DNA from: Acidimicrobiales bacterium
GTDB lineage: Bacteria; Actinomycetota; Acidimicrobiia; Acidimicrobiales; Aldehydirespiratoraceae
NCBI GenBank assembly: GCA_029263175.1
Contig: JAJCXZ010000095.1
Coordinates: 1 to 40,975 of the forward strand
Reading direction: 5' to 3'
Length of the DNA stretch: 40,975 nucleotides
This document shows positions 16,764 to 23,124 of this stretch, piece after piece (the first letter of the stretch is position 1; each line of letters starts with the position of its first letter). Both the position numbers and the translations under genes were made by a program. Below the pieces are notes generated by a model. The model did no database searches. It was not told the origin of the DNA and worked only from the letters and a program-made list of their open reading frames with translations.

Positions 16764-18551
16764 TCAGTGTCCTTCGGTCGTGTCGGCTGACTGCATCGGG
16801 AGCGGTAGCCCCTCCGCAGAGTTGAGCAATGCCACCAGTGTGCCGACATGCTCGTCGGCCCCACCAGCGGGAGTTGCGGTGACCTCACCGGCGCCACCGA
16901 GGAGGAACCTCGGCCCGTCGGCGGCGTCGAAACGCCCCTCATCGAGGTAGAGCCGTGGCTTGATCTGTGCGGGATCGCCATCCTCTGGGCAGAAGGTCAT
17001 GCAGTTCCCGCACTCGTTGCACAGCTCGCTGAACAGAAGGTACTGCTGTCGCCCCTCGAGCCCCTCCATGCCCGCGGTCGGAATCTTGAAGAACGCATCG
17101 TTGGGGCACACGGTGACGCAGAAGTTGCACGCCACACAACCCCATGTCTCGAGCTCGTGGTCGACCGAGCGAGGAAGCTTGGAGTTGCCTTCGAGCGCAT
17201 AGCGGTTCTTGTCATCGCCCAGGACACGCTCGAGGTGAACGGCTACCAGATCCCGGTGCCCGTCTCGGGCCGCGATGGAGAGTCGTTCGGTTCGCCAAGA
17301 CTCGAGATCCGTGGCCCCTTCGGCGCGAACCACGTCCGTGAGCGTGCGAAGCATCGGGGCGAGGCGGCCATAGCCACCGGGTTTCAGGAGGTCCGAACAG
17401 ATCGTGGCCGGCCGCACTCCCATGGCGATGGTGTCCACCAGGTTCTCCTTGGCAACCCCAGCGGAGAAGCTGACTTGTATGTCTCCATCGTGGCCGGGCA
17501 GCATCAGCTGCCCAGGGAGCGCGTCGGCGAGCTTGTCCGCGAGCGCAGTCGCGAGCACATGGAGCGGCGGGCCCGACAGGTACATCGTGTCTTCGGGCAT
17601 CCACTGTTTCTCGTTCGCAACGACAAGCGTGTTGGTGAGCTTGATACCGAACCGGTGTCCACGATCCTTCGCGTACTGGTTGAGCTCCCCGATGAGGCTG
17701 ATCGCCCGGTCGAACTGGAGGTCCGCATCAAAAGACGACGGCACGAGAACGACACTGTCGTAGCCGAGTTGTGTGTTCATGATGTCGCTCGCCCGTTCGA
17801 AGCCGAGCAGGGTCGGATTGAGCTTCACGATCACATCGACATCGTGGTCGTCGAGCAGGTGTTTCGTGATCGCCTCGATCTCATCGGGGGGACACCCGTG
17901 GAAGGTCGACAATGTGACGCTGTCGGAGACCGTCGGAGGGAACTCGATATCGGCGAGGTCACCGAAGACAGCCGGAATCTCCGGGCGGAGGCGTTCGATC
18001 TCCGCCGACGCGTCGCCCATCGCACGAATGAATCCCGCGACCTTGTCGCTCTGAATACCTGCGAGGTCGTAGCCGACCGAGAGGTCGAACACGTGAGGAC
18101 CGGTGTCGGGGCCGAGGTGCTCGGCAAGCGGTTCCCAGCGGCGCAGGATCTCGATGATCATCCACGCCTTGACGTACTCCTCGAGGCTCTGGTGGACCTC
18201 CAGTTCCTGGCTCCACTCGATGTTGTAGCCGATGGTCTCCATGTCGATACAGGGCCGGGCGATGTCGAGGTCGTCGAGGATCTGAACGGTCTTGAGTTCG
18301 AACAATCGAGAGCCGCCAAGCCATGCCAACACGATGTTCTGCGCCATCTGACTGTGGGGCCCTGCCGCGGGGCCGATCGGCGACGCCGCGGGGCGACCGA
18401 GAAACTCAAACGACAGGTCAATGTCGTCGGCCGGCGTCCAGATACGGGCCGAGGGGAGGTCGAAGATGCGCTGCCGCGATGTCCACTCATGATGTACGCG
18501 TCGCAACAATTCATTCAGCGACATCGGTGTGAGCGGCGGGGCTTCTGACAT
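16764..18551 (-). CDS. Shortened YgfK-like flavin/iron-sulfur oxidoreductase
   Basis: 595 residues. The N-terminal part (about 1-460) resembles the dihydropyrimidine/dihydroorotate-dehydrogenase-like domain of E. coli YgfK, called a putative selenate reductase subunit: G-P-A-A-G-P-H-S-Q-M-A-Q-N-I-V, F-E-L-K-T-V-Q-I-L-D, S-T-F-H-G-C-P-P-D-E-I-E-A-I and K-L-N-P-T-L-L-G. The C-terminal part matches YgfK's two-cluster ferredoxin end: C-V-A-C-N-F-C-V-T-V-C-P at about 471-481 and C-N-E-C-G-N-C-M-T-F-C-P at about 508-518. The roughly 400-residue FAD/NAD(P)H domain between these in YgfK (about 1030 residues) is absent. Electrons must therefore come from a partner such as the ferredoxin encoded next. 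GAAGGAA precedes the ATG. Substrate unknown. Confidence 0.82.
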   Translation of the reverse strand: MSEAPPLTPMSLNELLRRVHHEWTSRQRIFDLPSARIWTPADDIDLSFEFLGRPAASPIGPAAGPHSQMAQNIVLAWLGGSRLFELKTVQILDDLDIARPCIDMETIGYNIEWSQELEVHQSLEEYVKAWMIIEILRRWEPLAEHLGPDTGPHVFDLSVGYDLAGIQSDKVAGFIRAMGDASAEIERLRPEIPAVFGDLADIEFPPTVSDSVTLSTFHGCPPDEIEAITKHLLDDHDVDVIVKLNPTLLGFERASDIMNTQLGYDSVVLVPSSFDADLQFDRAISLIGELNQYAKDRGHRFGIKLTNTLVVANEKQWMPEDTMYLSGPPLHVLATALADKLADALPGQLMLPGHDGDIQVSFSAGVAKENLVDTIAMGVRPATICSDLLKPGGYGRLAPMLRTLTDVVRAEGATDLESWRTERLSIAARDGHRDLVAVHLERVLGDDKNRYALEGNSKLPRSVDHELETWGCVACNFCVTVCPNDAFFKIPTAGMEGLEGRQQYLLFSELCNECGNCMTFCPEDGDPAQIKPRLYLDEGRFDAADGPRFLLGGAGEVTATPAGGADEHVGTLVALLNSAEGLPLPMQSADTTEGH

Positions 18552-18638: not shown

Positions 18639-21602
18639 TCACAAATTGGCGGTCAGCGAGGCGATTCGTTGCTGAACGAACGTAACGATTTCGCGGTCCT
18701 TCATCGCCGCCCCCTGGCGGACCGCCTCGGCGAAACTGGCGGCACCAAGTTGGGACTGAACATGGCGCACACCTTCGGAGAGCCGCTCGGCATCAGCAGG
18801 AGTGCCGGGCATCGCTTGGGCGGCCCCCATTGCAGTCAGCGCCCCGTGCAGGACGGCAGCAAAAACGTACTCTCCCAACTCTGCGAAGATCCCGAGCACT
18901 CGCCGTAGCGACAACCATTGGTTGGCCCAGTCGCCGCCTCGATACCAGAGATCGATGACATCGGCGTACCCCGACAACGCGGCACGAAGGTCACCCTGCT
19001 GCGCACCGAGCGAATGAACCTCGGTGAGAGCGAACGCCTCCATCCAACGATTACCGACACCACCCGCAATCACACTTGCTCGCTGCAAGAGGACGAGTGC
19101 CTCCTCCGGTTCGACACCCTCGAGCGCGAGCCCCAACGCGAAGTCAGCTCGTGCATGAGCCGTCGGGGAGTTGGAGGCATCTGCGGCTGCACGCGCCTCG
19201 CCGGCAAGCACTGCACCACGTATCCCGTCACCGATTGAGGTGTAGGCAACCGACAGCATGAATGTGTTCTGGGCAAGCCGACCGTGGGCCTCATCGCGTC
19301 GCGACGAGAGCAGCATTCGGTTCATCCACTCGAACGCGACGTCTGTTTCGGCGAGATAGAAATGGGCGTTTCCGAGAGTCCGCTCCGCGAGACCGGTGTC
19401 CGACAGCTCCGAAGCCTTCCGGTGTTCGAGCGATCGATGGCCAAGATCGATCGCGCCCCGCATGTCGCCAACGACGAATCTGCCATACGCAACGATGGCG
19501 AGAGCCGTCGAGAAGTCAGGATGCTCAGCGGCACCTTCGAGTTCCGTCGATGCACCGGCCCACGATGTGATCTCATAGTTCACGCGCCGGAATGCGAACT
19601 CCCGCAGCGCTTTCACGAGGCGGAGCGCGCTGTCGAAATCCTGGAACCGCACCGCCGCGAGGTGGGCCGACCGATAGTTGTCGTAGTCGCGGAGGAGTTC
19701 AGACGACCAGCGGGCCTCATCGGCGGTGTCGAGACCGACTGCGCCGGCCTCGGCGCGATCGAGGAACCAGGCGACATGTCGTCGCTCTGCGGCCTCGAGG
19801 GCCCCTCGCGCGCGGAGATGGTCGAGGCCGAACTCTCTCAACGGTTCGAGGAGTCGGTAGCGCGAGGTCTGCCGATCGAGCAGGACCATGGACTTGTCGA
19901 CGAGGCTGGCAATCAAGCCCAGCACGGAATACCGGTCGCTACTGACCGTGCAGACTGCTGCGGCCGCTGCGTGTTCGAAGCCGCCGGCGAAGACGGCCAG
20001 CTGCTCGAAGAGCTCCTGTTCCTCCGTTGTCAGTAGCTCGTAGGACCACAGCACCAGGTCATGAAGGCTGCGCAGACGGCCATCCGCTCCACGCTGCATC
20101 TGACCTGGCATCTCGATGCGATCGTTGAGGCCCTGTGCAAGTGACGCCTCGCTCATCGTCCGGAGGCGAGCGGCCGCCAACTCAATGGCGAGAGGCAAGC
20201 CCTCAAGCCGTCGACAGATCGCGGCAACCGACTCGGCGTTGTCGTCGGTGAGTGCGAATCCAGGGGTGGTCGCCGCCGCGCGCGAGACAAACAGCTCGAC
20301 CGCGGGGCAAGATCCGATCTCCTCCAGCTGCGTGGCATCCGCTGGAGGGGTTGCCAACGGATCGAGCGCTTCGATGTACTCACCGGCGAGACCTAGCGAG
20401 GAACGGCTGGTGGTCAGAATCCTCAGTCGAGGACAGGACGATCGAAGCCGATCGACCAGCGGTGCAATCGTGTCAATGAGATGCTCGCAGTTGTCCAACA
20501 CGAGAAGGGTCTGGGTGGGAGCGAGGAATTCCTCCAGCGTGGTCTCGATCGAGCGGTGCGGTTGCTGCTGAACATCGAGTGCGCGCGCGATCGCTTGTGC
20601 CGCGCTGGACGGGTCGCTGTGCGCCGCCAGCTCCACGACCGTGAGCCCATCCTCGAAGTCGCCCATTGCTTTGGCTGCAGCTCGAAGCGCCAGGCGAGTC
20701 TTGCCAACACCCCCAGGCCCGGTGATGGTGACGAGTGGTTGCTGTTCGATCGCTGTTGTCAGCGCTGTCAGGTACGGATCGCGACCAACGAACGAGGTCA
20801 CGCCATCGAGCTGCTGCCTGGTGCTGGTGACCGCCGACGAGCGTGCCGGCTCGTTGGGCGCCAACAGTGACGGATCGTCCGCGAGAATCCTCACTTCGAG
20901 CTCGCGGGCACTTGCCGATGGATCGAGCCCGGCTTCAACCCGGAGGATCGTTCGGAACTCGCTCGCCCGTCGAAGCGCGTCAGCCTGTCGGCCGGCCCGG
21001 TATAGCGCCAGCATGAGCAGTCTCCAATAGGTCTCGCGGAGCGGATGCAGTGTGACCAACGACTCGAGCTCACCCACCATCGATGCGGGATCGCCCGATT
21101 CCATGCGCGCCTCGGCCCACTCGTCGGTGGCCACCAGCCGCAGCTCATCGAGCCTGCGGGCTTCGCCCTGCACCAAGGGAGTTTCCGCGCAGTCACCGAA
21201 GGCGGGGCCGTGCCACAGACCCAACCCTGATTCGAGAATCGGTAGCGATGCGGCGGATCCTGCGGCTCGAGCCCGGGCGAGAGCTGCTTCGAAGCGGGCC
21301 GCGTCGATCTCACCATCGCGGACCTCGAGTCGATAGCCGCCGGATGCGAATGCGATGGCGAAGTCCGGCTCGAGAATCGTCCGGAATCGCGAGACCAGAC
21401 TCTGCACGGTACCCACCGCTGACTTCGGGGGTTCGTCGCGCCAGAGCGCGTCGACCAGGCGTTCGATCGACATCAGGGTGTCGCGGTGGGCGACGAGAAC
21501 CGAGAGCAGGACTTGCGCCTTCGGGCCTCCGAGCGCGACGTCCTCCCCGTCTCGATGGAGGGCCATACCGCCAAGTACTCGTAGTTCGCTCCCGTCGGTC
21601 AT
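18639..21602 (-). CDS. AfsR/SARP-type regulator: winged helix, BTAD, NB-ARC-type ATPase, TPR-like C-terminus
   Basis: A 987-residue signal-responsive transcription factor. Domains: OmpR-like winged helix (about 1-90, with L-G-G-P-K-A-Q-V-L-L-S-V-L), bacterial transcriptional activator domain (about 95-240, with R-E-T-Y-W-R-L-L-M-L-A-L-Y-R-A-G-R-Q-A-D-A-L), a STAND-type ATPase with P-loop G-P-G-G-V-G-K-T near 292 and L-V-L-D-N-C-E-H-L Walker B, then a helical TPR-like repeat region. Known relatives activate specialised or stress genes. I chose ATG 21602 because M-T-D-G-S-E-L-R-V is the normal domain start; ATG 21632 is possible. It is divergent from the DUF1326-DUF2182 pair, with SARP-like repeats between them, so that pair is the likely target. 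Confidence 0.9.
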   Translation of the reverse strand: MTDGSELRVLGGMALHRDGEDVALGGPKAQVLLSVLVAHRDTLMSIERLVDALWRDEPPKSAVGTVQSLVSRFRTILEPDFAIAFASGGYRLEVRDGEIDAARFEAALARARAAGSAASLPILESGLGLWHGPAFGDCAETPLVQGEARRLDELRLVATDEWAEARMESGDPASMVGELESLVTLHPLRETYWRLLMLALYRAGRQADALRRASEFRTILRVEAGLDPSASARELEVRILADDPSLLAPNEPARSSAVTSTRQQLDGVTSFVGRDPYLTALTTAIEQQPLVTITGPGGVGKTRLALRAAAKAMGDFEDGLTVVELAAHSDPSSAAQAIARALDVQQQPHRSIETTLEEFLAPTQTLLVLDNCEHLIDTIAPLVDRLRSSCPRLRILTTSRSSLGLAGEYIEALDPLATPPADATQLEEIGSCPAVELFVSRAAATTPGFALTDDNAESVAAICRRLEGLPLAIELAAARLRTMSEASLAQGLNDRIEMPGQMQRGADGRLRSLHDLVLWSYELLTTEEQELFEQLAVFAGGFEHAAAAAVCTVSSDRYSVLGLIASLVDKSMVLLDRQTSRYRLLEPLREFGLDHLRARGALEAAERRHVAWFLDRAEAGAVGLDTADEARWSSELLRDYDNYRSAHLAAVRFQDFDSALRLVKALREFAFRRVNYEITSWAGASTELEGAAEHPDFSTALAIVAYGRFVVGDMRGAIDLGHRSLEHRKASELSDTGLAERTLGNAHFYLAETDVAFEWMNRMLLSSRRDEAHGRLAQNTFMLSVAYTSIGDGIRGAVLAGEARAAADASNSPTAHARADFALGLALEGVEPEEALVLLQRASVIAGGVGNRWMEAFALTEVHSLGAQQGDLRAALSGYADVIDLWYRGGDWANQWLSLRRVLGIFAELGEYVFAAVLHGALTAMGAAQAMPGTPADAERLSEGVRHVQSQLGAASFAEAVRQGAAMKDREIVTFVQQRIASLTANL

Positions 21603-21625
21603 GACCTGCAGTGTCGCCCAGATCC

Positions 21626-21643
21626 CTTGCATGCCGCTTGCAA
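21626..21643. promoter_or_regulatory. Heptamer direct repeats (SARP-like operator candidate) upstream of the regulator and DUF1326
   Basis: CTTGCAT (21626-21632) and CTTGCAA (21637-21643) are 11 bp apart, meaning heptamers with a 4-bp spacer. This is the geometry described for SARP binding sites. A further TGCAAG occurs at 21659. On the minus strand a GACACT hexamer lies 7 nt before ATG 21602. The match in spacing is seen; binding is inferred. Confidence 0.4.
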
Positions 21644-21759
21644 GCGCCCGGAGTCGTCTGCAAGTGACCCGAGATCAGACTGCACGGGTACCCCTTCACG
21701 ATGAAAAACATCCGGCAACTCAACACTGAGTGGCCGTACAGAGAAACGGAGAAATGAGC

Positions 21760-22356
21760 ATGTCCTGGAATGTGTCGGGTACCTATTTCGAATCGTGCAA
21801 CTGCGAGGCCGCGTGCCCGTGTGTCTTCCTCAGCCCCCCGACAGAGGGCGACTGCACGGCCGTCCTCGGATGGCATATCGACAGTGGCGAGTTCGACGGT
21901 CTGTCAATCGACGGACTCAACGTCTCGCTGGCCGTCTATGCCGGCGGCCACATGGCCAACGGTGGATGGCGAGTCGCCCTCTACGTCGATGACCGCTCCT
22001 CGGAGGCGCAAGTCGAGGCGCTCGGAGCGATCTTCTCCGGCGCCGCCGGCGGCCACCCTGCAGTGCTCGCAGGCTTCATCGGTGAGGTGATGGGTGTTGC
22101 ACCCGCAGCAATCACGTTCGACGCTGATGCCTCATCGCTGTCGTTCACGGTCGGCGGGATCACCGACGTACACCTCAAGGCGATTGAGGGTCAGGGAGGA
22201 GCGCTGGTCACTGTGGGCAATCATCCGTTGGCGGTTTCGCCGAGCAACGACGCTGTCGTTGCTCGCTCCGAACGGCTCACCTACAGCGACCATGGCTACG
22301 AGTGGGAAATCACCGGCCGCAACGGATTCTTCTCGCCATTCCAGTACGAGGGCTGA
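21760..22356 (+). CDS. DUF1326-family protein
   Basis: 198 residues, function unknown. The N-terminus has the family's cysteine signature C-N-C-E-A-A-C-P-C (C-x-C-x3-C-x-C) near residue 12, followed by another Cys in G-D-C-T-A-V-L-G-W. The rest has alternating hydrophobic strands and no membrane segment. I chose ATG 21760 because GGAG (21748-21751) is 8 nt before it; ATG 21754 is too close. It is followed after 3 bp by a DUF2182 gene. The two families are often found as a pair, which suggests a shared, perhaps metal- or thiol-related role. Confidence 0.85.
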   Translation: MSWNVSGTYFESCNCEAACPCVFLSPPTEGDCTAVLGWHIDSGEFDGLSIDGLNVSLAVYAGGHMANGGWRVALYVDDRSSEAQVEALGAIFSGAAGGHPAVLAGFIGEVMGVAPAAITFDADASSLSFTVGGITDVHLKAIEGQGGALVTVGNHPLAVSPSNDAVVARSERLTYSDHGYEWEITGRNGFFSPFQYEG

Positions 22357-22359
22357 GCC

Positions 22360-23124
22360 ATGACGGCGCTGAGCACTCCGACACGAACCCGAGGCAGCCT
22401 GACCGTTCCGGTCGCCCTGATCGGGACGACCGCGCTCTGCTGGGCCTATCTCGTCTTGCTCAGCGTGCGCATGGGCGACATGGGATCACCGCTGGCGATG
22501 CCCATGACCTCAGCGTGGACCCGAGCCGACGTGTTGCTCATGTGGACGATGTGGTCGGTGATGATGGCGGGGATGATGATTCCGTCGGCAACGCCGATGA
22601 TCCAGAGCTATGCCACGACCATCAAATCCGATCGGACGCCACACCGGGGCTCGACTCCCTTCTTTGTGGCGGGATATCTCGTTGCCTGGGCGGGCTTCGC
22701 AGCCGCAGCCACGGCGGCGCAATGGTTGTTGCACGATCTGGCTCTGGTCAACGCCATGGGCACGTCGACGAGCCAGTCGCTCGGTGGTGTACTGCTCTTC
22801 GGGGCGGGGGCATATCAGTTCACCGGCGTGAAGGACCGCTGCTTGAGTAGGTGCCGGTCTCCCCTGGGCTTTCTCCTGAGCAGTTGGCGCGACGGAAGTG
22901 CGGGGGCATTCGTCCTCGGAACGCACCACGGCTCCTTGTGCATCGGCTGCTGCTGGGCGCTCATGGCGCTGCTGTTTGTGCTCGGCGTCATGAACCTGTG
23001 GTGGATTGCGCTCGTCGCTGCCGTCGTACTTGTCGAGAAGGTGACCGCCAGTCGTGCACCTTCACAGCTGCTCGGTGTTGGCCTCATCGGTTGGGGTGCC
23101 GCCGTGATCGTCGGTGTCGCGTAG
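22360..23124 (+). CDS. DUF2182 integral membrane protein (predicted metal binding)
   Basis: 254 residues with about six membrane segments. The conserved Met-rich signature M-W-T-M-W-S-V-M-M-A-G-M-M-I-P-S lies at about 67-82. Later Cys motifs C-L-S-R-C and C-I-G-C-C-W-A-L-M, plus T-H-H-G, fall near membrane edges. Met, Cys and His at membrane faces are why the family is called predicted metal-binding; no activity is established to my knowledge. The start is 3 bp after the DUF1326 stop. A strong hairpin terminator follows the gene. Confidence 0.85.
   Translation: MTALSTPTRTRGSLTVPVALIGTTALCWAYLVLLSVRMGDMGSPLAMPMTSAWTRADVLLMWTMWSVMMAGMMIPSATPMIQSYATTIKSDRTPHRGSTPFFVAGYLVAWAGFAAAATAAQWLLHDLALVNAMGTSTSQSLGGVLLFGAGAYQFTGVKDRCLSRCRSPLGFLLSSWRDGSAGAFVLGTHHGSLCIGCCWALMALLFVLGVMNLWWIALVAAVVLVEKVTASRAPSQLLGVGLIGWGAAVIVGVA

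Follow-up and report, generated by a model that had tools for sequence, protein, structure and literature searches.

What might a large regulator of the AfsR type be doing back to back with a DUF1326 and a DUF2182 gene? The arrangement lies in a stretch of 40,975 nucleotides from an Acidimicrobiales bacterium (positions 1 to 40,975 of contig JAJCXZ010000095.1, assembly GCA_029263175.1; hereafter the window), and an initial annotation, made from the letters, had described it as a 987-residue regulator divergent from a DUF1326-DUF2182 pair. All three open reading frames (ORFs) are confirmed here. The ORF listing and Pfam place the regulator, a large SARP, at 18639-21602 on the minus strand (987 residues from the ATG at 21602; an in-frame ATG farther upstream would give 997). 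On the plus strand, the gene for the soluble five-cysteine DUF1326 protein (PF07040; ORF, Pfam match and predicted model) runs from 21760 to 22356, and that for a Met/Cys-rich membrane protein of 254 residues (PF09948 by Pfam, formerly DUF2182) from 22360 to 23124. The DUF1326 ORF is open from 21730 and has an alternative ATG at 21754; we favour 21760 as the start, since the equivalent MxWNVSG is where the nearest homologue begins. With the preferred starts, 157 base pairs (bp) separate the regulator from the pair, and the gap between the two genes of the pair is 3 bp. Our answer, to which we give about an even chance, is that this is a SARP-controlled module for Cu(I) delivery, in which the membrane protein, PpoB2, metallates the DUF1326 protein.

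The argument for copper begins with the membrane protein. Its match to PF09948 is nearly complete (1.3e-64; 218 bits vs a cut-off of 28.7; profile positions 1-187 of 188; COG5486), it is the only PF09948 gene in its own genome, and the Pfam name of this former DUF2182 is PpoB2, copper chaperone. That neither DUF had an established function, as the initial annotation held, is therefore wrong for DUF2182, which is a copper-transfer family: according to the excerpted review, Marinomonas mediterranea PpoB2 supplies copper specifically to the tyrosinase PpoB1, its operon partner, whereas a different copper oxidase does not receive it (PMC2855505). The two systems are alike in having a PpoB2-family gene directly linked to one gene for a soluble partner, as far as that excerpt describes it (PMC2855505), and differ in that the partner here is DUF1326, with a SARP divergent; they are likened by family profile and description, not by sequence, and membership of the PF09948 profile does not require a tyrosinase partner. 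The protein is indeed rich in Met, Cys and His, as had been noted (15, 6 and 4 residues, respectively). Its predicted model (pLDDT 89.9) has nine helices, perhaps seven of them transmembrane, and a topology drawn by hand from these helices and the charges of the loops suggests an inside N-terminus, a Met-rich loop (38-57) outside and a loop with C161 and C165 (154-182) inside. Structure comparison gave no informative match (Foldseek best E 0.81; best Z 5.5, to helical receptors), an absence that we do not read as a new fold.

To which partners, then, is PpoB2 fitted? Among 296 genomes sampled from the phylum, 62 have PpoB2, 53 have DUF1326 and 48 have both (Fisher p 1e-36). We also assembled 119 loci (given L numbers below), consisting of the window, 58 loci found through DUF1326 protein similarity and 60 regions from the phylum draw, with ORFs called by a custom caller that makes some errors. 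Both genes are present in 89/119, as neighbours in 85 and as same-strand neighbours in 82, with DUF1326 first in 67 of the 82; PpoB2 occurs without DUF1326 in 7 loci, and neither gene in 2. PpoB2 exchanges partners, standing beside DUF1326 in the majority of loci and beside tyrosinase, DUF899 or a heavy-metal P-ATPase in others. Of 60 phylum PpoB2 genes with at least 150 residues, 49 have DUF1326 as the neighbour within 900 bp; 4 have tyrosinase, 2 have DUF899, 1 has an HMA-type P-ATPase and the remaining 4 have none of these. The count is not a random one, since the regions had been picked because they matched one family or the other, and a tyrosinase search later added two of the four loci with that partner. 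In those four (L174, L176, L180 and L181; Actinomycetota) PpoB2 adjoins tyrosinase without DUF1326, which is the Marinomonas arrangement, whilst DUF899 (L142, L161), the HMA-type P-ATPase (L175) and an XdhC/CoxI gene (L173) are other possible partners.

Throughout these exchanges, nearly all PpoB2 members of every partner class retain M68, M72, M73, C165, C194 and M202, with M73 present in 99/99 sequences. Other positions follow the partner: C161 (80/87), H190 (78/87) and C197 (86/87) characterise the DUF1326-linked proteins, and all three are found in 0/4 tyrosinase-linked ones, these four being a single branch. One PpoB2, on a Kofleriaceae contig (L077:2488-3471), carries His/Met-rich GHDMTGHQ/E repeats in the outer loop between helices 1 and 2; this GHDMTGH-repeat loop likely catches metal.

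The soluble partner is a clear family member (PF07040, 2.6e-52; 177.9 bits vs a cut-off of 25), and the C-x-C-x3-C-x-C motif that the initial annotation had pointed out is present as C15, C17, C21 and C23, joined by a fifth and last cysteine, C34 (numbered from the ATG at 21754). All five are kept in 47/47 aligned relatives (alignment A5), a count biased by the peptide patterns, YFESCNCE included, through which the 58 loci had been found; hence the repeat with 60 profile-derived homologues from the phylum regions, in which the five cysteines are invariant (60/60) and the intervening residues vary. G45 and D79 are invariant in the same 60/60. In the predicted model (pLDDT 93.4), four of the cysteines follow the first strand and the fifth stands at the start of the second. 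The structures closest to this model are 12 acetoacetate decarboxylase relatives, with Z 10.1-11.4 over 149-161 residues (the next match has 8.7); Foldseek likewise ranks two such relatives first (E 4e-5 and 1e-4), with low TM-scores of 0.39 and 0.44. Identity to acetoacetate decarboxylase-like barrels is 7-15%, and sequence searches of the PDB gave no relative with a meaningful E-value (one reached 0.53 at best, another had no match). The acetoacetate decarboxylase-like superfamily has a catalytic Schiff-base lysine. DUF1326 is predicted to share the barrel and differs in having a five-cysteine set and no conserved lysine: the single lysine of the window protein, K142, is not conserved, and there is neither a conserved lysine among the homologues nor a conserved histidine set of a type 3 copper site. 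We rejected acetoacetate decarboxylase chemistry on this ground, and some long DUF1326 ORFs that might be taken for fusions look like over-extended starts. A search of the open-licence literature, which subscription papers mostly lie outside, found no paper on DUF1326 function. Three loci have a further DUF1326 gene, of a different subtype (YYEACNCxAVCPCRR), directly after PpoB2: L062:1866, L064:4589 and L066:6254.

Could DUF1326 nonetheless be an enzyme, with the barrel pocket retained, a Cys-bound metal in place of the Schiff-base lysine, PpoB2 as its dedicated metal insertase and the SARP in control of a small metabolic step? The known client of PpoB2 is an enzyme, in the portion of the review available (PMC2855505); the top structural matches of the predicted model, at the Z-scores given, are all relatives of an enzyme; and G45 and D79 are invariant besides the cysteines. 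Enzyme genes also recur near the pair, among them BBE-type FAD oxidases in 9 loci (L119, L122, L124, L129, L130, L131, L135, L150 and L155; clusters c36 and c48, of which two members were Pfam-scanned). These neighbouring enzymes vary by clade, however, and BBE accounts for 5/105 downstream genes vs at most 2/136 controls (p 0.24, not significant). Considering also the lack of a conserved lysine and of type 3 copper histidines, we find the enzyme rather unlikely, though it survives better than the other two alternatives weighed below.

By its domain layout the regulator looks like a large SARP, and it is not AfsR. BTAD (1.2e-32) and NB-ARC (9.7e-8) match above their Pfam cut-offs and Trans_reg_C falls just below its own (1.4e-5; 25.5 bits vs 26.2), which gives a winged helix-turn-helix (wHTH) at about residues 26-91, BTAD at 99-240 and an NB-ARC ATPase at about 286-486 with its P-loop at 295; in the Pfam scan the C-terminal half has no match at all, TPR included. 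In the excerpted literature AfsR has 993 residues, and its SARP portion is held in check by the ATPase and TPR portions (PMC10936776). The regulator is close to AfsR in length and shares the wHTH-BTAD-ATPase build of large SARPs, AfsR and PimR among them. Unlike AfsR, it adjoins a metal pair and not an antibiotic gene, and orthology to AfsR is rejected (NCBIfam NF053617, 176.9 bits vs an equivalog cut-off of 1430). Its six cysteines are scattered, and we likewise rejected a clear Cys-based metal sensor.

Is this regulator tied to the pair? The closest parallel is an Acidimicrobiales contig, L061, which repeats the divergent layout with identities of 63% for the regulator, 76% for DUF1326 and 67% for PpoB2; upstream of the pair in L064 and L066, and on its strand, stands a regulator with 32% identity, and in L062 it lies downstream and convergent. 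In a quick PpoB2 tree the window belongs to a clade of 8 (SH-aLRT 99), and in 5/8 clade members a homologous regulator adjoins the pair, in these three layouts and at 0-98 bp by the longest ORFs. Of the others, L063 has a distant SARP at 1.6 kb, L133 none in 15.5 kb, and L065 is cut 460 bp upstream of DUF1326. More distant SARPs occur within 500 bp of the pair in L124, L125 and L130, where they are divergent, and in L150. Across the 119 loci, 9/17 SARP-type regulators are at most 500 bp from the pair, in 7.7% of the DNA (p 1e-6); this and the other linkage p-values are too small, since the loci are related.

The genes immediately upstream point the same way. Trans_reg_C is their commonest Pfam family (12/102, vs at most 2/136 distant controls), and 9/102 without hand edits (p 0.011 to 0.033). 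The edits replaced small spurious ORFs in L061, L082 and L124 with three manually chosen genes, all carrying wHTH domains, and two of 104 (L065, L168) were omitted. As for controls, 136 of 140 drawn genes were scanned, the four dropped being one each of L088, L103 and L157 together with L119:3-2477, a BTAD regulator; control counts are upper bounds, drawn from the 25 commonest families, hence at most 2/136, or at most 3/137 with the dropped BTAD regulator. Five alphaproteobacterial loci (L071, L076, L078, L079, L082) have a wHTH-TPR regulator, presumably CadC/HilA-like, divergent from the pair at less than 200 bp, in some cases with ATCTCA-type 11-bp repeats; these proteins differ from the SARPs, from which they group apart, in having about 510-540 residues (the uncut ones) and TPR without an ATPase.

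Between the divergent genes lies an operator-like array of four YTGCA boxes (21627-21686, plus strand): TTGCATG at 21627, TTGCAAG at 21638, CTGCAAG at 21658 and CTGCACG at 21680, at steps of 11, 20 and 22 bp, with a looser fifth box, CTGCAGT, at 21606. The L061 promoter has boxes with identical steps, and between the two promoters the TGCA core letters are identical at 16/16 positions, the other letters at 25/44 (p 0.001, post hoc). Searched with at most 2 mismatches, the four-box pattern has a single match in the 4.4-Mb genome, at this promoter, and its reversed control none. At other regulator-linked loci the letters change and the step persists, with TTGAC/TTGAA-type repeats in L062, L064 and L066 and ATCTCA-type ones in L079 and L082. 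Counting 7-mer repeats with at least 6 matching letters per promoter, lag 11 was the best separator among lags 6-35, being present in 8/11 regulator-linked promoters vs 12/53 others; it had been noticed by eye prior to counting, and without the window and L061 the figures are 6/9 vs 12/53 (p 0.014). L125, L130 and L150 contributed no upstream stretch to this count, and four alphaproteobacterial repeat-bearing promoters are mutually related. By shuffling, two copies at lag 11 reach p <0.05 in 3/11 regulator-linked vs 2/53 other promoters, and three copies at 11+11 do so in 5/11 (L061, L062, L064, L066, L082), the window not being among them (0.068). In the excerpts available, SARP operators are direct repeats spaced 11 or 22 bp, AfsR binds two 11-bp repeats that overlap the -35 element (PMC10936776), and PimR binds CGGCAAG heptamers with 4-bp spacers, to which the first two boxes of the window, a heptamer plus 4 bp, compare directly (PMC5930380). 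Unlike such operators, the array includes a 20-bp step. We posit from these letters a candidate SARP operator in the shared promoter, short of proof given that step and a -10 element that was not recognised.

How might the parts work together? By analogy with AfsR, the regulator could be a STAND-type switch, opened when a signal is sensed by its C-terminal half; the wHTH-BTAD part would then bind the phased YTGCA boxes and recruit RNA polymerase, so activating the DUF1326-PpoB2 operon. That it controls the pair is suggested because of the clade linkage, the genome-unique array kept in L061 and the lag of 11 that matches SARP operators, and it may also control its own gene, since its start is 25 bp from the first box. 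PpoB2 would capture Cu(I) at its outer Met-rich loop and pass it across the membrane via M68, M72, M73, C194, C197, C198 and M202 to C161 and C165 on what would be the cytoplasmic side. From there it would be handed to DUF1326, a soluble barrel with five cysteines in and beside one loop, holding the place of Marinomonas PpoB1 as a dedicated receiver; the final use might be that of a copper carrier or buffer, or of a copper protein with its own activity. We favour Cu(I), and transfer in this direction, because PF09948 is the PpoB2 copper chaperone family whose namesake, as excerpted, metallates its operon partner PpoB1 (PMC2855505), and because of the adjacency of the pair, the partner exchange, the kept Met and Cys of PpoB2, the five invariant cysteines of DUF1326 and the His/Met repeats of L077.

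Several observations weigh against this answer. We know of one studied case in the PpoB2 family, and copper is assigned by carry-over from it; the quick tree sets the tyrosinase-linked PpoB2 apart on a branch of their own; and no tyrosinase (PF00264) match was found in the window's own genome, which is 97% complete, by a search that is positive in 20/296 phylum genomes, so tyrosinase as the target there is rejected. DUF1326 occurs without PpoB2 in 21/119 loci, within the stretch examined and with some contigs cut. An adjacent regulator is uncommon: BTAD or wHTH-TPR regulators come within 500 bp of the pair in only 14/119 loci, and outside the clade most pairs lack a SARP neighbour. The initial annotation had itself named a regulator not conserved with the pair as the finding that would count against it; conservation holds in the near clade, and overall a regulator of either kind is this close in these 14 loci only. 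Its proposal of a regulated metal- or thiol-handling module accordingly stands for metal handling, with the PpoB2 family, the clade linkage and the SARP-type array kept in L061 behind it, and in a limited way for the regulator link. In the array, whole boxes are not significantly better conserved than spacers between the window and L061 (22/28 vs 19/32, p 0.16), the lag-11 pair of the window alone is not significant by shuffling (p 0.11), and the 20-bp step and the unrecognised -10 element count here too. The best hint against copper alone comes from L124:8866-9126, L125:6735-6998 and L130:13735-13998, in which an SCO4226-like gene (PF14026 by Pfam in L124, by clustering in L125 and L130) comes right after the divergent SARP; SCO4226 binds nickel, as far as the excerpt goes (PMC4186839).

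Would a thiophilic metal other than copper (Ni, Zn, Cd, Hg), or a redox signal carried by thiols, fit better, with PpoB2 as a paralogue of changed specificity? The SCO4226-like genes at these three regulators, the different branch and different cysteines of the tyrosinase-linked PpoB2, and the replacement of DUF1326 in 2 loci by DUF899, thioredoxin-like by a weak AhpC-TSA match, would all agree. As a matter of general chemistry, thioethers favour Cu(I). The reading is weakened because of this preference and the Met-rich core kept across partner classes, M73 in every sequence; an HMA-type P-ATPase also adjoins PpoB2 in L175, though HMA domains are no proof of copper. We regard a metal other than copper, or a thiol signal, as distinctly improbable. 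That the regulator is a chance neighbour of an unrelated metal pair, as one of many SARPs in a genome with 12 BTAD matches by profile search, and with BTAD alone borderline among upstream genes (7/102 vs at most 2 or 3 controls, p 0.04 to 0.10) and most pairs elsewhere lacking an adjacent SARP, is very hard to credit against a link kept in five of eight clade members across three layouts, the clustering of 9 of the 17 SARP-type matches near the pair and a shared-promoter array that has no second occurrence in the genome and is retained in L061.

Returning to the SARP-controlled delivery of Cu(I), its interest would be that two DUFs become a testable copper route, one partner belonging to a known copper family and the other having five invariant cysteines and a predicted fold, under a controller whose candidate operator is defined and has a single occurrence in the genome. 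If true, it would tie a SARP, a kind of regulator known chiefly from antibiotic clusters, to metal handling, whilst the exchange of tyrosinase, DUF1326, DUF899 and heavy-metal P-ATPase hints that bacteria fit one membrane copper carrier to varied receivers. A bolder version, which we offer tentatively and think doubtful on balance, makes PpoB2 a modular Cu(I) conduit, fitted in evolution to one receiver or another, and DUF1326 the founder of a new class of copper proteins, with a five-cysteine Cu(I) site replacing the chemistry of an acetoacetate-decarboxylase-like barrel and a SARP that senses a non-metal signal as the switch. In the open-licence literature searched, we found neither the SARP link with its array, nor the DUF1326 barrel assignment, nor the five-cysteine set, nor the partner exchange.

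Some features of the surroundings vary. In the window, a 595-residue iron-sulphur protein is encoded 87 bp behind the regulator (16764-18551, minus strand), with a partial match to the selenate reductase subunit YgfK (437 bits vs a cut-off of 835); in the L061 map the regulator has no YgfK-like neighbour. Genes of the histidinol dehydrogenase, SDR, BBE and M16 kinds were each considered as constant parts of the module and rejected, since each occurs in some clades only. The SARP beside a DUF1326 tandem at L150:88-3609 carries a guanylate cyclase domain, placed after BTAD and before the ATPase. Two M16-type peptidase genes stand directly upstream of DUF1326 in 11 loci, mostly deltaproteobacterial or Binatota contigs (L083, L084, L086, L087, L089, L096, L097, L098, L099, L102, L106; two members Pfam-scanned, the rest assigned by clustering), with an extra ORF in between in L089.

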